Assembly: GCA_024734555.1 (NCBI GenBank)
Contig: JANPWX010000054.1
Location: 4,314,287 to 4,378,286, forward strand
DNA: 64,000 bases
Reading direction: 5' to 3'
Source of the DNA: Trochalopteron elliotii
Taxonomy: Eukaryota > Chordata > Aves > Passeriformes > Leiothrichidae
Of this stretch, positions 27,560-34,942 are shown piece by piece. A program made the position numbers and the translations under genes. The notes beneath the pieces are model-generated. The model worked only from the letters and a program-made list of their open reading frames with translations, searched no databases and was not told where the DNA came from. Each line of letters begins with the position of its first letter. The stretch's first letter is position 1.

Positions 27560-27564
27560 GTTAC
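27560..27564. repeat. Target-site duplication GTTAC, left copy
   Basis: GTTAC immediately precedes the left LTR and is repeated exactly after the right LTR at 34392-34396, showing a 5-bp staggered integration. Confidence 0.93.
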
Positions 27565-28243
27565 TGTCTTGGTTTAGGGCGAATTTGGGAGGGAATCTCT
27601 GAGTGGGGTTTTTTTGAAAAGCAAATCTAAACAGCCCCTCCCCCCAGCCGGTCTGGGGAAATAATTTCCTCAGAGATAGAGTGGAAAAAAAGCTTTATTT
27701 ATTTAACAAACAAAATGCTCACAAGCATAAAGAATGAATAATAATAATAACAATAATAATAATATGAAACAATAAAACCTTTCGCTGCTCCGAAGAGAGA
27801 TGGCAAAACTCAGAGTCCGTGTCAGGAGTTTGTTTATTAGTCTCTTTAGTGCTGAAAAATGCCGAGTCTCGGCCCGGTGGGCCACGGGTGCAAGATTCTG
27901 GTGCTCCTCTGGGTTTTTCAGTCTTGAGCAGATTTAAACAGTCTTAAAGAAAAATAAAATAATAAAAAAAACAGTCTAGGAAAGCTTCTTTGCCTCAGCT
28001 AGCTAGACTAACAAGAGGAGAAGAAAAAAACTCTTTTTGGCTGCTCTTTGTGTATCTGACGAAGAAAAAAAAAAAAAAAAAAAGAAACTACACAGTCCCA
28101 AGGACGAGAGCAGATTTTGAGGAGTGAGTTTGTTTCTCAAAACAAACTGCGCGCTTCTTTTTTTTTTGCTCACTCTCAGAACTAGTTTTAAAGGTACAGA
28201 ACACAGAACAGACGATTTGGGGATACATAGTCACTCTAGGACA
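27565..28243 (-). repeat. 3' LTR of the provirus (edited copy)
   Basis: 679 bp with TG...CA termini. Compared base by base with the other LTR it carries 23 T-for-C differences (+ strand) and a 3-base longer A run (near 28065-28083), with no other change. It contains an AATAAA poly(A) signal and a short ATT/ATA-repeat stretch near 27735-27765. Confidence 0.96.
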
Positions 28244-28256
28244 TTCCACCCCTTAT
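28244..28256 (-). other. Polypurine tract for plus-strand priming
   Basis: On the minus strand ATAAGGGGTGGAA directly abuts the 3' LTR start TGTCC. The position and purine run (AAGGGG) are those of a retroviral polypurine tract; the single T interrupts it and may be native. Confidence 0.8.
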
Positions 28257-28462
28257 TACCATATCGTTAATTTATCAAAACTAATTGAATTTTAACTCTA
28301 CAAACACACATTATGCATGCATATATCTATATAAAAACAATATACAGCTATATACAGACAATGGCAGTGACATTTAACAAAAGTGATATGTACACATGGT
28401 TTTTATCTAACAATTAGATCTTTCTGAGGTACACATTTTGTTGTTTTATTTTTTTGCATTAT

Positions 28463-29299
28463 TTACTATGTACAACTTGGTCTTTGAGCAAAGACAATCT
28501 CACGGATGGGTTTGTCTGTACTTGAGGTGGATTTGATTTAAATTGTTTTTCCTAGCAAACTTTTTGCATGTACTACAGGGACTTTATTTTTATCTACTGT
28601 ATGCAGGAGCTCAGACTGGGCAGGGTTTGCTCTGTTGGTGGAACTTCGGGTGTTAACTAACTAGGTGGTTTTTGCCAGATGCTGCTCTTAGTTTTTGAAA
28701 GATCTCCCACTCAATGCTTTCAAGGTGGTCTTTAATAGTTTATTGAATTTTTTTACTTTTTCAGCAGCTGGTGCATGGTAGGGGATATGGTACACCTACT
28801 CAATGCCATGTTCCTTAGCCCAGGTATTGATAAGGCTGTTTTTGAAATGAGTCTTGTTGTTTGACTTAATTTTTTTAGGGGTATTATGCCTCCAGAGAAC
28901 CTGCTTTTCAAGGCTTAGAATGGTGTTACGGGCTGTAGCATGAGGCACAGGGTAGGTTTTCAGCCACTCCGTGGTGGCTTTTATTATTGTGAGCACGTAG
29001 CGCTTACCTTGACGTGTCTGGGGTAATGTGATATAATTAATTTGCCAGGCCTTCCCATACTTGTATTTGGACTATTGTTCACTATACTATAGGGGCTTCA
29101 CCCGCTTGGCTTGCTTGATTGCAGCACATGTGTCACAGTTATGAATAATTTGAGAAATACTGTTTATAGTGAGATTTACTCTTTGGTCTTGTGCTCACTT
29201 ATAGGTGGCATTTCTGCCCTGATGACCTGAGGCATCATGAGCCTATCGAGCTAGGAACAACTTTTCTTTGTGTTGTCAATTTAAGTCTATTTTTGACAC
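28463..29299 (-). pseudogene. Integrase domain, catalytic Asp residues changed to Asn
   Basis: The zinc-binding HHCC region is visible: a His at 29237-29239 with a second His a few residues on, and Cys-x2-Cys at about 29126-29137. In the catalytic core, the first expected Asp (context AWQINYIT) reads AAT at 29036-29038, and the second (context KSNNKTHF) reads AAC at 28859-28861. Both are Asp-to-Asn by one G-to-A step. The third acidic position appears to read Lys, but I am less sure of that alignment. A TAG at 28796-28798 and further stops end the frame; TAG/TAA at 28463-28468 probably mark the end of the protein. Confidence 0.88.
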
Positions 29300-29900
29300 C
29301 TTTATCTTTGCAGCTTGATTTACTTGCTCATTGTTTTTGTGCTCTTCATCAGCTCTACTCTTGGGGACATGGGCATTTATATGACGGATTTTTACAGGTA
29401 GCTTCTCTATTCGAGTGGCAATGTCTTTCCACTCTTCGGCAGCTCAAATTGGTTTTCTTTTACGCTGCTAGTTAGCTTTTTTCTACTTCTTTAACTATCT
29501 CCATAAAGCATTGGCTACTATTCATGAATCAGTATAGAGGTAGAGCTTTGGCCACTTCTCTCTCTCAGCAATGTTTAGGGCTAACTGAACAGCTTTGAGT
29601 TCAGCAAGTTGGCTTGATTTACTATCTCCTTCCGTGGCCTTAGCGACTTGTCGTGTGGGGTTCCACACAGCTGCTTTCTATTTCTGGTTTATTCTCACTA
29701 TGCGACAGGAACTGTTAGTGAAAAGAGCGTAGGGTGTTTTTTCTGTTGGCAGTTGGTTGTATGGTGGAGCTTTTTCAGCACGTGTTACTGGTTTTTGCTC
29801 TTTTTTATTTGTGAGACTAAAGTTTTCACTTTTAGGCTAATTTGTAATTATCTTCAAAATTCTAGGGCGATTTAGTTTTTTAATACGGGCGCGCTGTGTG
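29300..29900 (-). pseudogene. RNase H domain remnant
   Basis: Weakly preserved. On the minus strand a QLAELKAVQ block (near 29600) is followed by LYTDS at about 29525-29539, the acidic motif typical of retroviral RNase H, immediately broken by TGA at 29522-29524. A degraded connection region lies at about 29972-30157 (FWSRSYKKSK and YTPTEKEILAAYE blocks). Limits are approximate. Confidence 0.75.
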
Positions 29901-30159
29901 ATGACAGCAATCTACTTACTTTATGTAGCATTGGTGGCATGGTGGGTAGACGGAACTTTTGTTTTAAACATTCACCTCAGCACTGGTAGTCGGGGTGCCA
30001 GGAGGAGTTGTGTTTCAGTGCCTATTACTTTTGAGGCAGCTTGGACTCTTTCATAGGCTGCTAAAATTTCTTTTTCTGTGGGAGTATAATTGGCTTTAGA
30101 CTTTTTGTAGCTTCGACTCCAGAATCCCAGCGGTTGTTTTCGAGTCTCTTTAGGCACTT

Positions 30160-31189
30160 TTTGCTAAAGACTTCAGGACAGACCATGGCTCTTGGCTGTA
30201 GAGTAGAGCACGTTTTTTACATTTGGTTTTGTTTTGACTGGGCTAAGGGCCACTGCATGGGCAATCTCTTGCTTGATCTGGGCAAAGGCGTGTTGCTGTT
30301 CAGGGCCCCAGTGGAAAGTGTTTTTCTTGCGGGTAATCAGGTAGAGAGGACTCACAATTTGGCTGTATTCAGGGATATGCATTTTCTAAAAACTTATGGC
30401 ACTTAGGAAAGCTTGTGTTTTTTTTTGTTGGTAGGTAGAGACATTGCTGTGATCTTGTTGATGACATCAGTAGGAATTTGACGCCATCTATCTTTCCACT
30501 TAATTCCCAGGAACTGGATCTCTCGAGCAGGTTTCTTAACTTTGCTCTTCTTGATAGCGAATCTAGCTTTCAGCAGAATCTGGATGATCTTCTCTCTTTT
30601 CTCAAACACTTCAGCTGCAGTATTCCTTCACACAATGATGTCATCGATGTACTGCAGATGTTCTGGAGCTTCACTTTTTTTCAGTGCAGCCTGGATCAGT
30701 TTATGGCAGATGGTAGGACTGTGCTTCCACCCCTGGGGCAGTCGGTTCTAGGTGTATTGTACTTCCCTCCATGTGAAGGCAAACTGAGGCTTGCACTCTG
30801 CTGCCAGAGGAATGGAGAAAAATGCATTGGCAATGTCAATAGTGGCATACCACTTTGTTGCCTTGGACTTCAGTTCATACTGGAGCTCCAACATGTCTGG
30901 CACAGCAGCGCTCAGCGGTGGAGTCACTTCATTCAATGCACGATAGTCCACAGTCAGTTTCTATTCTCCTTCAGATTTTCGCACAGGCTAGATGGGGCTG
31001 TTGAAGGGTGAGTGGGTTTTGCTGACTACTCTTTGACTCTTCAGCTCACGGATTATCTTATGAATGGGGATTACGGTATTTTGAGTTGTTCTATACTGTC
31101 GGCGGTGCACTATTGAGGTGGCAATTGGTACTTGTTGCTTTTCCCCCTTCAGAAGTCTTACTGTTGACGGATTTTTGGACAGTCTAGGC
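30160..31189 (-). pseudogene. Reverse transcriptase domain, catalytic YIDD intact, frame broken
   Basis: Conserved blocks in order on the minus strand: the PI-H-K-I-I-R-ELK entry block, L-TVDYRALNEVTPP, YATIDIANAFFSIPL (catalytic Asp), FAFTWREVQYT, LPQGWKHSP, then QYIDDIIV with the YIDD catalytic motif at 30640-30651. Stops interrupt it at 30988, 30961, 30748 and 30628, and the frameshift near 30418-30426 separates the thumb or connection part (HIPEYSQIVSPLYL onward). The fold is clearly that of a retroviral RT and not of a LINE. Confidence 0.92.
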
Positions 31190-31584
31190 AAGGTGTTCAA
31201 TTGCTGGATGCCCTCCATCACTACAGCTGCTATCTTAAATGCCCATTTGAGTTCTTTAGGGTCTCTGAAATACCCACTCCGAAGGTAGTCTATGCTTAAA
31301 ATGCATGGGGCCTTTGGGCCAGTTGCAATAAGGTGTTTTTTCCACTCATTTCTAGTTAGGCTCACCTCTGCCTCCACTAACGTATAGTCTTGTGATTTTT
31401 TGGTCACACCAGCAATAGAAACAGATTCTGCCCCTACATGTGTTGATGGAATTAATGTGCGCTGTGCATCAGTATCGACCAAGGCTTCGTATTCTTGTGG
31501 TTTAGATGTGCCAGGCCAACGAATTTACACATTCTAAAAAACACGATTTTTCCTAGCTTCTACCTGGCTAGAGGCAGGGCTCTT
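31190..31584 (-). pseudogene. Retroviral aspartic protease domain, active-site Gly changed
   Basis: The catalytic Asp-Thr-Gly of retropepsins appears at 31468-31476 as Asp-Thr-Asp, preceded by ALV and followed by AQRTLI. The Gly codon reads GAT, one G-to-A step from GGT. Further on, a CILSIDYLRSGYF block resembles the second conserved part of the protease. Three stops or near-stops separate it from gag (31585-31587, 31534-31536, 31525-31527). No separate start codon or frameshift site is needed, because it continues in gag's frame. The domain limits are approximate. Confidence 0.85.
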
Positions 31585-33612
31585 CTAGTCTTGGTTTTCC
31601 TTCTTTCTTTGGGCGTATGTCTTAGAGGTTCTTTTAAGGGAGTCAGACATATCATCATTATCATATTTGGCAGTTTGCCTACGGGCAATTGGAGCTGCTT
31701 TTCTTTTGGTGGAACCTCCTCTCTGGGTCTTGCCTTCCTTCAGCTCATGTACTCGTTGTGCCAAAGCAGCAGTAGATTTTTTATCCCACCTCTTCATGTT
31801 TTTTTTGCAATTACGCAGGAAGAACCACAGCTCAGCTCGTCGAGTGTACTCTCTCTCCCTATCTGGGGAACGTCTTCGTTGGGTACCAACACTTCTGATC
31901 TGTACTGCTGAAATTTGGAAGAGGTCTTCTTTAATCTCTTCTCTGAGTTTTTTGTGATTCTCCTCTATTTTATTTTTTAGTTTTTGTAGACGTGTTTTCA
32001 CAGCTGCAATTTTGGCATGTGTTGGGCCATGCACGGCATTTGCATATGCTCGCAGCTTTTTCGCCATGTCGAGCACGGTTTCATATGTTTCATTTCGCTT
32101 CATTATTGCTAGAGCAGAAGCGTATTCAGGTGGCTCAAGTCGCACAAGTTTCTTTCACATGACAGGTGTACATGGTACCAGGTCTGGATTCTTAGTTGTT
32201 ATGTCATTTGAAAAAATGAGCTCTGCTACAGCTATCTTTTTCAGACGTTGGATCCCCTGTTTTATGGTCTTTTACTGTGTCTGCTGCAGATAGAGGTCAT
32301 TTGCACACAGGTATCTTTGTGCTACACCTTCCAGGATCCGTTCCCAGAGACTGTGAGGGCTAGCGTCTCTCATTATGCTTTGGTCAATGACAGGATTATG
32401 TGATAGAGATTTTAAATGCTTCGCTTCAGTGCCATTCAGAATGGTAGCCTCCCCTGCAGCATTTCAAAGGCGGACTAACCAACTAATTATAGATTCATCA
32501 GGTTGTCGCCTGTAGTCTTTTTTTAGGCTTCGAAGGTCCTTTAGGGAAAAGGTATCAATATTGGCTCTAGAATCTGTACTCCTCGATGTGGCTTTTGATT
32601 TTGGTGAAGGTTTTTTTCTTGCATCATCATCATCATCTTCTACCTTGCGATTGGTCTTGTTTTTACACTTTCTGCTTCTTGTATTAGCAGCAACAGCCAT
32701 TGGTTGAGGCTTACTGTTTAGTTCAGCTACTGGCCTGGAGCCTGGGATATTAGCTGCAGCCTGAGTGACTGGAATAGTAACTGTTGATTTGCATCCTTGC
32801 TTCTTTGTCTCTGTCGGCTGCCCTACATTATCTAGCAGGGTGCGATAAGCATATGCTAGAGCCTAGCTTACTGCAATGATCTTTTCTCCCTTAGAGGCAT
32901 CATGGTATTTCTCTTTTAGGTATTTTTTCACCTTGGCTGGATTCTGAATTTGTTCATGTGGAAAGTCCCAGACTACAGGGTCAGAAAACTCCTTCAGGAG
33001 CTGGCTCATATCTTCCCATTCTTTACACCATTCAAGATTTCTTACGCTTGGGTCAACTCTTGGGTCAGGGGTTTTATTAGCCCTTCGAGAAATCTCAGCT
33101 CTCATTTTAGACAAGCTGCAAACCATATAGAGGAAGCTCACCAGCTGAAATACCAGGAAGATGGTATCTTTAACATTCAGGGGACACTGAATATTCTCTA
33201 AAAGTGATGTGACCGATTTAAAAGATATGAGGGACAGGAAAGACTGAAAAGCTTCATCCCCTGTTCCTCCTCTAACAAAGTGGGTGCAATTATTTATAAA
33301 TTCCCAAAACATGCTGCTGGAACTAGGACGCATGGTAGGACGAAGAAACTATAAACCAAACATATCTGCCACAAACTCTAGTACCTTCATAAACTTCTTA
33401 TAAATCATGATTACTAAACTTAACAAAATAGCAATTCTAAATCGTGCACCTCTAGTGTAAAAGCTATGTGTTAGGGACAACATTGGAGCTAGTTCTGGAT
33501 AAGAAAACAAGCCTAGGGACTAGAAAGGTATTAGAACTTCAAAGAAACTTAGGGAACAGAAATACAGCAAGGGTTTTATTCTAATAGACATTAGGGATTT
33601 AAGGGGCAACAT
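31585..33612 (-). pseudogene. gag: gag polyprotein gene, six in-frame stops
   Basis: From an ATG at 33610-33612, 75 bases after the primer site, one frame of 675 codons runs to TAG at 31585-31587 without any frameshift. It is interrupted only by TAG at codons 31, 88 and 250, TGA at 383 and 486, and TAA at 447. The N-terminal part is matrix-like, with a helical block around 32863-33333. The middle has a LKDLRSLKKDYRRQPDESI capsid-like block near 32480-32560. The C-terminal part is very basic, with a long coiled-coil-like segment near 31930-32030 and a WFFLRNCKKNMKRWD block. I see no Cys-Cys-His-Cys zinc knuckle. The final TAG may itself be an edited Trp codon, so the true Gag end is uncertain. 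Confidence 0.88.
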
Positions 33613-33686
33613 GGCTACTTTATCTCCACACAAAAAACAACCAAAATGCACTCAATAATTAATACAAGTTTTTTCCACTCTCTCGA

Positions 33687-33704
33687 GCCCCACGTTGGGC
33701 GCCA
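33687..33704 (-). other. Primer binding site for tRNA-Lys1,2
   Basis: On the minus strand TGGCGCCCAACGTGGGGC, 11 bases inside the 5' LTR end, matches exactly the 18-base complement of the 3' end of tRNA-Lys1,2, as used by Mason-Pfizer-type betaretroviruses and visna-type lentiviruses. Confidence 0.95.
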
Positions 33705-33715
33705 AATTTACTGTA

Positions 33716-34391
33716 TGTCTTGGTTTAGGGCGAATTTGGGAGGGAATCTCCGAGTGGGGTTCTTTTGAAAAGCAAATCCAAACAGCCCCTCCCCCCAGCC
33801 GGTCTGGGGAAATAATTTCCTCAGAGATAGAGTGGAAAAAAAGCCTTATTTATTTAACAAACAAAATGCCCACAAGCATAAAGAATGAATAATAATAATA
33901 ACAATAATAATAATATGAAACAATAAAACCTCTCGCTGCTCCGAAGAGAGATGGCAAAACTCAGAGTCCGTGTCAGGAGTTTGTTTATCAGTCCCTTTAG
34001 TGCTGAAAAATGCCGAGCCCCGGCCCGGTGGGCCACGGGTGCAAGATTCTGGTGCTCCTCTGGGTTTTTCAGTCTTGAGCAGATTTAAACAGTCCTAAAG
34101 AAAAATAAAATAATAAAAAAAACAGTCCAGGAAAGCTTCTTTGCCTCAGCTAGCTAGACTAACAAGAGGAGAAGAAAAAAACTCTCTCTGGCTGCCCTCT
34201 GTGTATCCGACGAAGAAAAAAAAAAAAAAAAGAAACCACACAGTCCCAAGGACGAGAGCAGATTCTGAGGAGTGAGTTTGTTTCTCAAAACAAACTGCGC
34301 GCTTCTTCTTTTCTTGCTCACTCTCAGAACCAGTTTTAAAGGTACAGAACACAGAACAGACGATTTGGGGATACATAGTCACCCTAGGACA
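33716..34391 (-). repeat. 5' LTR of the provirus (reference copy)
   Basis: 676 bp with TG...CA termini. In viral sense it begins TGTCCTAGGGTGAC and ends AACCAAGACA. An AATAAA poly(A) signal is at 33849-33854 (minus). A TTTAAAA element near 34333-34340 could serve as a TATA-like box. It holds C at all 23 positions where the 3' LTR has T. Confidence 0.96.
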
Positions 34392-34396
34392 GTTAC
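34392..34396. repeat. Target-site duplication GTTAC, right copy
   Basis: Exact match to the left copy at 27560-27564, so neither copy has decayed since insertion. Confidence 0.93.
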
Positions 34397-34704: not shown

Positions 34705-34942
34705 GCATTAGGAAGAAATCCTTTACCGTGTGGGTGGTAAAGTATTGGAGCAGGCTTCCTTGGGATCTTGTGGATGCCTCATCCCTGGGAGTGTTCCAAG
34801 GCCAGGCTGGACAGTGCTTTGAGGGACCTGGTCGAGTGGGAGGTGCCCCTGCCCACGGCAGGGGAAGGGAGGGGTAGCACTAGATCATCTCTAAGGCCCC
34901 TTCTAACCCAAACCATTCTCTGGTTCTGTGATTGTAGCTGCT
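34705..34942 (+). repeat. CR1 LINE 3' end, plus orientation
   Basis: Typical CR1 3' untranslated phrases in forward order: 'aggaagaaatcctttaccg', 'atccctgggagtgttccaag', 'gccaggctggacagtgcttt', 'gaggtgcccctgcccacg', 'agatcatctctaagg', and a terminal 'ccaaaccattctctggttct'. The 3' end is intact and the 5' part is truncated, as usual for CR1. Confidence 0.9.

Follow-up and report, generated by a model that had tools for sequence, protein, structure and literature searches.

We found an endogenous retrovirus in the songbird Trochalopteron elliotii that carries a set of derived C-to-T changes in both of its LTRs and a further set in its 3′ LTR only. In the most probable reading, to which we assign roughly 85%, its minus-strand cDNA was deaminated in two waves, the second on the bared strand of the 3′ LTR, probably by an APOBEC1-type enzyme. 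The provirus lies within a stretch of 64,000 nucleotides, here called the window, and positions are given in the coordinates of this stretch.

The provirus and its LTR pair

Including its target-site duplications, the provirus occupies 27560-34396, and its genes are encoded by the minus strand. Both duplications read GTTAC (left copy, 27560..27564; right copy, 34392..34396). Read along the + strand, the 3′ LTR (27565..28243) is followed by the internal region (28244-33715) and the 5′ LTR (33716..34391). The internal region consists of a 3′-proximal part reaching up to the polypurine tract (28244..29743), a middle part (29744..32215) and a 5′-proximal part with the primer-binding site (32216..33715). 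Pieces of integrase (28796-29071, in the 3′-proximal part), reverse transcriptase and RNase H (both in the middle part) match Pfam families above the cut-offs. The protease-polymerase piece has 155 protein matches, and those that are named among the best 120 of the 155 come from birds, Hirundo being first (76%). Outside the provirus, a search for host genes among the open frames found ten (of 14 listed in all) that match no Pfam family. ARAGORN reports a tRNA-Val (cac) at 34822-34903, some 430 bp past the 5′ LTR, which may be a chance tRNA-like match or a SINE remnant.

A 5-bp target-site duplication is a criterion for class III (ERVL-like) endogenous retroviruses in PMC6523648. Such a 5-bp flanking match occurs in all ten of the two-LTR proviruses compared, namely that of the window and nine others. 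The assignment to class III is not simply compatible with the primer-binding site of the window provirus, which we take to be of the lysine type. An exact 22-mer of the family LTR had no match in viral contigs.

Pairwise alignment of the two LTRs gave 23 substitutions, and in every case (23/23) a C in the 5′ LTR corresponds to a T in the 3′ LTR. Other classes of substitution are absent, and the sole indel is a difference of three A's in an A-run. The changed C is preceded by C in 13 cases, T in nine and G in one, and is followed by G in two of the 23. The initial annotation, made by eye, had described the same one-way difference confined to one copy, the A-run as the only other change and an identical tally of preceding bases, with a preference for a pyrimidine; the alignment and tabulation agree on each point.

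For comparison, we used the 28 LTRs with loci out of 38 other full-length LTR matches listed. Because these family LTRs read C at the 23 sites in 630 of 644 cells (T in 14), T is, by this comparison, the derived state, and it is the 3′ LTR that has it. A further 14 C-to-T changes are common to both LTRs of the window provirus; C is present at these sites in 24 to 28 of the 28 other LTRs. Each of the 14 follows C or T, and they are scattered along the 5′ LTR. Both LTRs also have G at two sites where 28/28 other LTRs have A. The 3′ LTR therefore totals 37 derived C-to-T changes on the + strand (G to A in the viral sense), of which 23 are missing from the 5′ LTR, and the 5′ LTR totals 14, all present in the 3′ LTR too. 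Standing in both LTRs, the 14 edits and the two private A-to-G changes tie the 5′ LTR to the same event, and it is no later patch.

The initial annotation had attributed the differences to cytidine deamination of minus-strand cDNA, which the direction, the derived state and the CC/TC context bear out. It had also reasoned that T in both LTRs of related copies, or a comparable number of other differences within the pair, would speak against this; the family reads C in 630 of 644 cells, and the number of such differences is zero.

Editing extends past the LTR pair, and the internal region is more heavily edited than the LTRs. This goes beyond what had been noticed initially, as do the 14 changes common to both LTRs and the recurrence of the 3′-only pattern in other proviruses of the family. 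As a reference, we used an unedited provirus of the family on contig C10, aligned in four pieces whose neighbours overlap by a few dozen bases. Against it, the internal region has 391 C-to-T changes and 21 other substitutions, with 77, 83, 93 and 138 C-to-T changes in the successive pieces from 5′ to 3′; G-to-A changes on the + strand number four. An alternative count, using 5442 sites at which several unedited copies agree, gave 386 C-to-T changes and six others. The edited fraction depends on the preceding base: 195/423 after C, 167/487 after T, 15/280 after A and 14/303 after G. WRC, the hotspot of AID, is edited at 19/323 sites, and WYC at 232/489. Edits at YC rise from 71/233 in the 5′-proximal part, the least edited, over 85/201 and 81/230 in the two overlapping pieces of the middle part, to 125/246 in the 3′-proximal part, the most heavily edited. 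The segment 29887-30433, which falls outside one three-way division of the sequence, is edited at 46/83. The provirus thus has the marks of hypermutation, namely a transition excess that runs one way on one strand, a fixed preference for the preceding base and a gradient along reverse transcription.

Edited and unedited members of the family

We surveyed 1.04 Gb of genome in 2215 contigs, starting from the best LTR matches, and obtained 18 proviral loci with internal sequence: the window provirus, the C10 reference and a further 16. Of the 18, seven carry edits (the window provirus and those on C786, C973, C14, C357, C22 and C226). The other ten have one to two YC changes per 1.5-kb piece relative to C10, as judged from two pieces each for C1279, C1309, C1219, C713, C41 and C1015, and from one piece each for C69, C568, C274 and C1081. 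Editing is all-or-nothing across this sample.

In the other edited proviruses, the 3′-proximal piece is more edited than the 5′-proximal piece in 6/6 (p from 0.017 to 5e-52), so that, with the window provirus included, editing rises towards the polypurine tract in 7/7. The motif is similar among them, with a CC/TC ratio of 1.23 to 2.05 (heterogeneity p=0.057). Edited sites coincide between proviruses beyond the expectation from context in 21/21 comparisons, by 1 to 24%. This excess fits mostly independent events with hotspots, although some edits may be shared by descent.

Three loci of the survey have features of their own. The 3′-proximal piece of the C226 provirus (L062, G000:C226:1706500-1708600) is the most heavily edited that we found, with 175/220 YC and 44/149 other C changed; its 5′-proximal piece is edited at 27/233 YC. 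Locus L054 (G000:C1015:4289-7963), on a contig of 10 kb, has an LTR at 1501-2175 with internal sequence on either side, as in a tandem provirus sharing its middle LTR. At L007 (G000:C100:1049371-1050040), a solo LTR is flanked by a 5-bp duplication and has C-to-T changes at 14 CC and TC sites, which would fit an edited provirus reduced to one LTR by recombination.

Ten proviruses have two full LTRs that can be compared, and six of these pairs are edited. The raw changes from 5′ to 3′ LTR, given as C to T, T to C and other, are 23, 0 and 0 in the window pair; 36, 2 and 3 in C786; 20, 0 and 0 in C973; 17, 1 and 4 in C14; 4, 1 and 1 in C22; and 9, 0 and 1 in C226. Across the six pairs, the polarised edits at YC sites number 36 shared by both LTRs, 104 confined to the 3′ LTR and one confined to the 5′ LTR; at other C, the counts are 5 and 3. 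Between 35 and 36 of the 37 YC edits in 5′ LTRs are nested in the edits of the 3′ LTR, and the shared and 3′-only edits have equal context. Taken together, the six proviruses have the two properties expected of a second wave specific to the 3′ LTR: their 5′ edits are nested but for one, and additional edits are confined to the 3′ LTR. The four unedited pairs have zero YC edits, their LTRs differing at six (C10), ten (C1279), one (C1309) and zero (C1219) sites.

The pair counts leave out C713 (223 bp of 3′ LTR, with one C to T, after A), C357 (159 bp with none, the remainder being N) and C41 (52 bp with none). A search for the partner LTRs of C69 and C274 found none, and those of C568 and C1081 are off the contig end or cut.

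The map along the reverse transcript and its probable explanation

We pooled the edited fractions at YC over the six edited two-LTR proviruses to obtain a map. The 5′ LTR is edited at 15/222 at its U3 end and 14/262 at its U5 end, the first 300 nt of the internal region at 38/203, the last 300 nt ahead of the polypurine tract at 123/234, and the 3′ LTR at 59/222 at its U3 end and 65/263 at its U5 end. There is a step at the border of the 5′ LTR (14/262 versus 38/203, p=1e-5) and another at the polypurine tract (123/234 versus 59/222, p=1.4e-8). Both coincide with the ends of the stretch covered by plus-strand strong-stop DNA. In the pooled data, the 3′ LTR is intermediate between the 5′ LTR and the region before the tract; in C226, the two LTRs differ little.

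Retroviral reverse transcription makes the minus strand first, and plus-strand strong-stop DNA copies its LTR early. In the mechanism that we propose, a deaminase would first act on the minus-strand cDNA, leaving C-to-T changes on the strand complementary to the viral genes. Edits made before the minus-strand LTR is copied into plus-strand strong-stop DNA would enter both LTRs. Once the second strand transfer has taken place, the minus strand would be extended over the strong-stop DNA and in doing so displace the old minus-strand LTR, which would stay single-stranded until plus-strand synthesis arrives at the very end. Deamination of this displaced strand would place edits in the 3′ LTR alone. 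Since editing of the minus strand before copying marks both LTRs alike, the 3′-only edits need a second, later exposure, a point for which the initial annotation had offered no explanation.

Under the proposed mechanism, every edit of a 5′ LTR should recur in its 3′ LTR, and the level in the 3′ LTR should lie between those of the 5′ LTR and the region before the tract. The mechanism further requires a hazard in the second wave that is no higher than the rise along the internal region. In a fit to four proviruses, the point estimates of the hazard and the rise are 0.31 and 0.52, 0.49 and 0.96, 0.23 and 0.33, and 0.19 and 0.43; the intervals are wide, and the point estimate is below the rise in 4/4. 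The mechanism also predicts a slope inside the 3′ LTR, with more editing at U5, but the data have no such slope, either in the 3′ LTR of the window (11/25, 5/28 and 6/29 from U3 to U5; rho -0.17, p=0.14) or in the pooled 3′ LTRs (59/222 versus 65/263, p=0.68). In C226, 31/39 YC are edited ahead of the tract, yet only 8/81 in the LTR ends, and the second wave is therefore not simply proportional to the first. Overall, the pattern agrees with deamination of the minus strand and a second wave that acted on the displaced strand of the 3′ LTR.

The nested LTR sets could instead have arisen from a single wave if an unedited family member had later overwritten the 5′ LTR by gene conversion, and the genome does hold many near-identical unedited LTRs. 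However, the 5′ LTR of the window retains 14 edits and two A-to-G changes that occur as a set in none of the 28 other LTRs, and the difference has the same direction in 6/6 edited proviruses, which makes conversion very improbable. The same set of 14, missing from those 28 LTRs, argues against inheritance, in which transcription of an already edited parent would have supplied the both-LTR edits and the last cycle only the 3′-only ones. PMC12548423 describes a copy of this kind for the mouse proviruses Mtv17 and Mtv23, and site sharing between our proviruses is slightly above the prediction from context. Against it also stand the gradient along an individual provirus, which is what one round would produce, and the equal context of shared and 3′-only edits; we regard inheritance of this kind as unlikely, if less so than conversion.

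Changes made in the chromosome after integration, by AID or through decay of methylated CpG, might be considered given that three AID exons match in this genome and that C to T is a common product of decay. Against such an origin stand the changes on one strand only (391 C to T versus four G to A in the internal region), the coldness of WRC (19/323, versus 232/489 for WYC), a G following only 2/23 changed C, LTRs that differ by 23 versus 0 in one direction, and ten other proviruses of the family with one to two YC changes per piece. We give this origin as little credence as gene conversion. Deamination of the minus strand in two waves is thus the preferred reading.

The divergence of the two LTRs is the clock by which proviruses are ordinarily dated. 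At a bird substitution rate of 2e-9 per site and year, the 23 differences among 676 LTR sites would age the young insertion in the window to about 8 million years. The clock misleads here because the LTRs are separated by 23 edits and no other substitution. The 3′-only edits also place the action of the deaminase at the close of reverse transcription.

Candidate editors and known systems

With the APOBEC_N profile, 12 candidates in the genome were scored, and six places match. On contig C439 these are three AID exons and, about 15.5 kb from each other, two APOBEC1-like exons; the sixth is an APOBEC2-like exon on contig C1672. AID and APOBEC2 were named from translations and a tree. The NAD2 profile found the same places, and an APOBEC3-type gene is not among the matches of either profile, which comprise AID, APOBEC2 and APOBEC1-like sequences only. 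AID and both APOBEC1-like exons are confined to 28 kb of C439 (G000:C439:22428-49813).

One exon of each APOBEC1-like gene was seen, and both exons keep HAE and PCxxC and have the APOBEC-1 entry 6x91 as their best PDB match. Their nearest named relatives, among the best 120 of 157 and the best 120 of 136 matches, are bird ABEC1 or APOBEC-1-like proteins. The relatives listed include the songbirds Leiothrix, Chamaea, Locustella and Zosterops (up to 86%), and among these matches both forms have relatives in many bird orders. In a small tree, the two exons fall into two bird clades (supports 91/87 and 99/98); its rows were hand-chosen from the two relative searches, and the split into two clades is no independent discovery.

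AID was rejected as the editor by its motif (WRC 19/323 versus WYC 232/489). The initial annotation had named AID, an APOBEC1-like or another lineage enzyme as the likely agent; AID is unlikely, WRC being among the coldest contexts, and an APOBEC1-like enzyme stands as a candidate, with two exons on AID's own contig. Because the motif disfavours AID, the editor is probably an APOBEC1-type enzyme, and the two exons are likely candidates. Both genes are immediate candidates for an avian counterpart of APOBEC3G. The recurrence in six proviruses, together with the lack of APOBEC3 among the APOBEC_N and NAD2 matches, suggests a trait of reverse transcription rather than of one enzyme. More tentatively, and at slightly less than even odds, one of two old APOBEC1 duplicates next to AID may serve this bird, if it lacks APOBEC3, as a working equivalent of APOBEC3G that prefers CC and TC and wrecks reverse transcripts all-or-nothing, its late wave leaving in every victim an LTR difference by which second-strand synthesis could be timed.

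APOBEC3G prefers CC, and the target here is of the CC type too. The passages on HIV-1 in PMC6395001 and PMC7760323 describe further likenesses, namely C-to-U changes on the minus strand and editing that is highest immediately 5′ of the polypurine tract. Unlike HIV-1, which has two tracts and two gradients, the bird proviruses have one rise and belong to another host lineage, in which APOBEC3 was not found among the APOBEC_N and NAD2 matches.

Strong editing of LTR elements in zebra finch and oscine passerines is reported in passages of PMC6523648 and PMC6497032 that cite Knisbacher and Levanon 2016, and PMC12548423 also cites this work for zebra finch. The reports mentioned in the initial annotation therefore exist. 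The songbird elements resemble ours in their strong one-way editing, G to A in the viral sense, and the citing passages are silent on LTR pairs and on timing. By title and abstract, a literature search mostly without subscription papers yielded no bird case of 3′-LTR-specific editing.

The closest known system is that of the mouse Mtv proviruses, as described in a 2025 J Virol paper (PMC12548423). There, the LTRs are separated by 13, 16, 2 and 9 differences in four of 21 two-LTR proviruses (Mtv17, 21, 61 and 62), and every difference except one is a 3′-specific G to A. One MLV provirus is named with four; the paper describes such differences as previously unreported for other retroviruses. The explanation by a displaced strand was first given there, for Mtvs. 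In both systems, some edits are in both LTRs, a set of G-to-A changes is in the 3′ LTR only, the internal region is edited too and the same explanation applies. By contrast, the editor of the Mtvs is mouse APOBEC3, whereas the bird has APOBEC1-like candidates and a context in which CC is at least as favoured as TC. The gradient of one Mtv is given there as unlike those of HIV-1, whereas 7/7 edited bird proviruses rise towards the tract. Editing of songbird LTRs in general is thus already known, and its 3′-LTR-specific kind has been known since 2025. What appears to be new is the bird case itself, the stepped map in six proviruses and, as likely candidate editors, the two APOBEC1-like exons beside AID.
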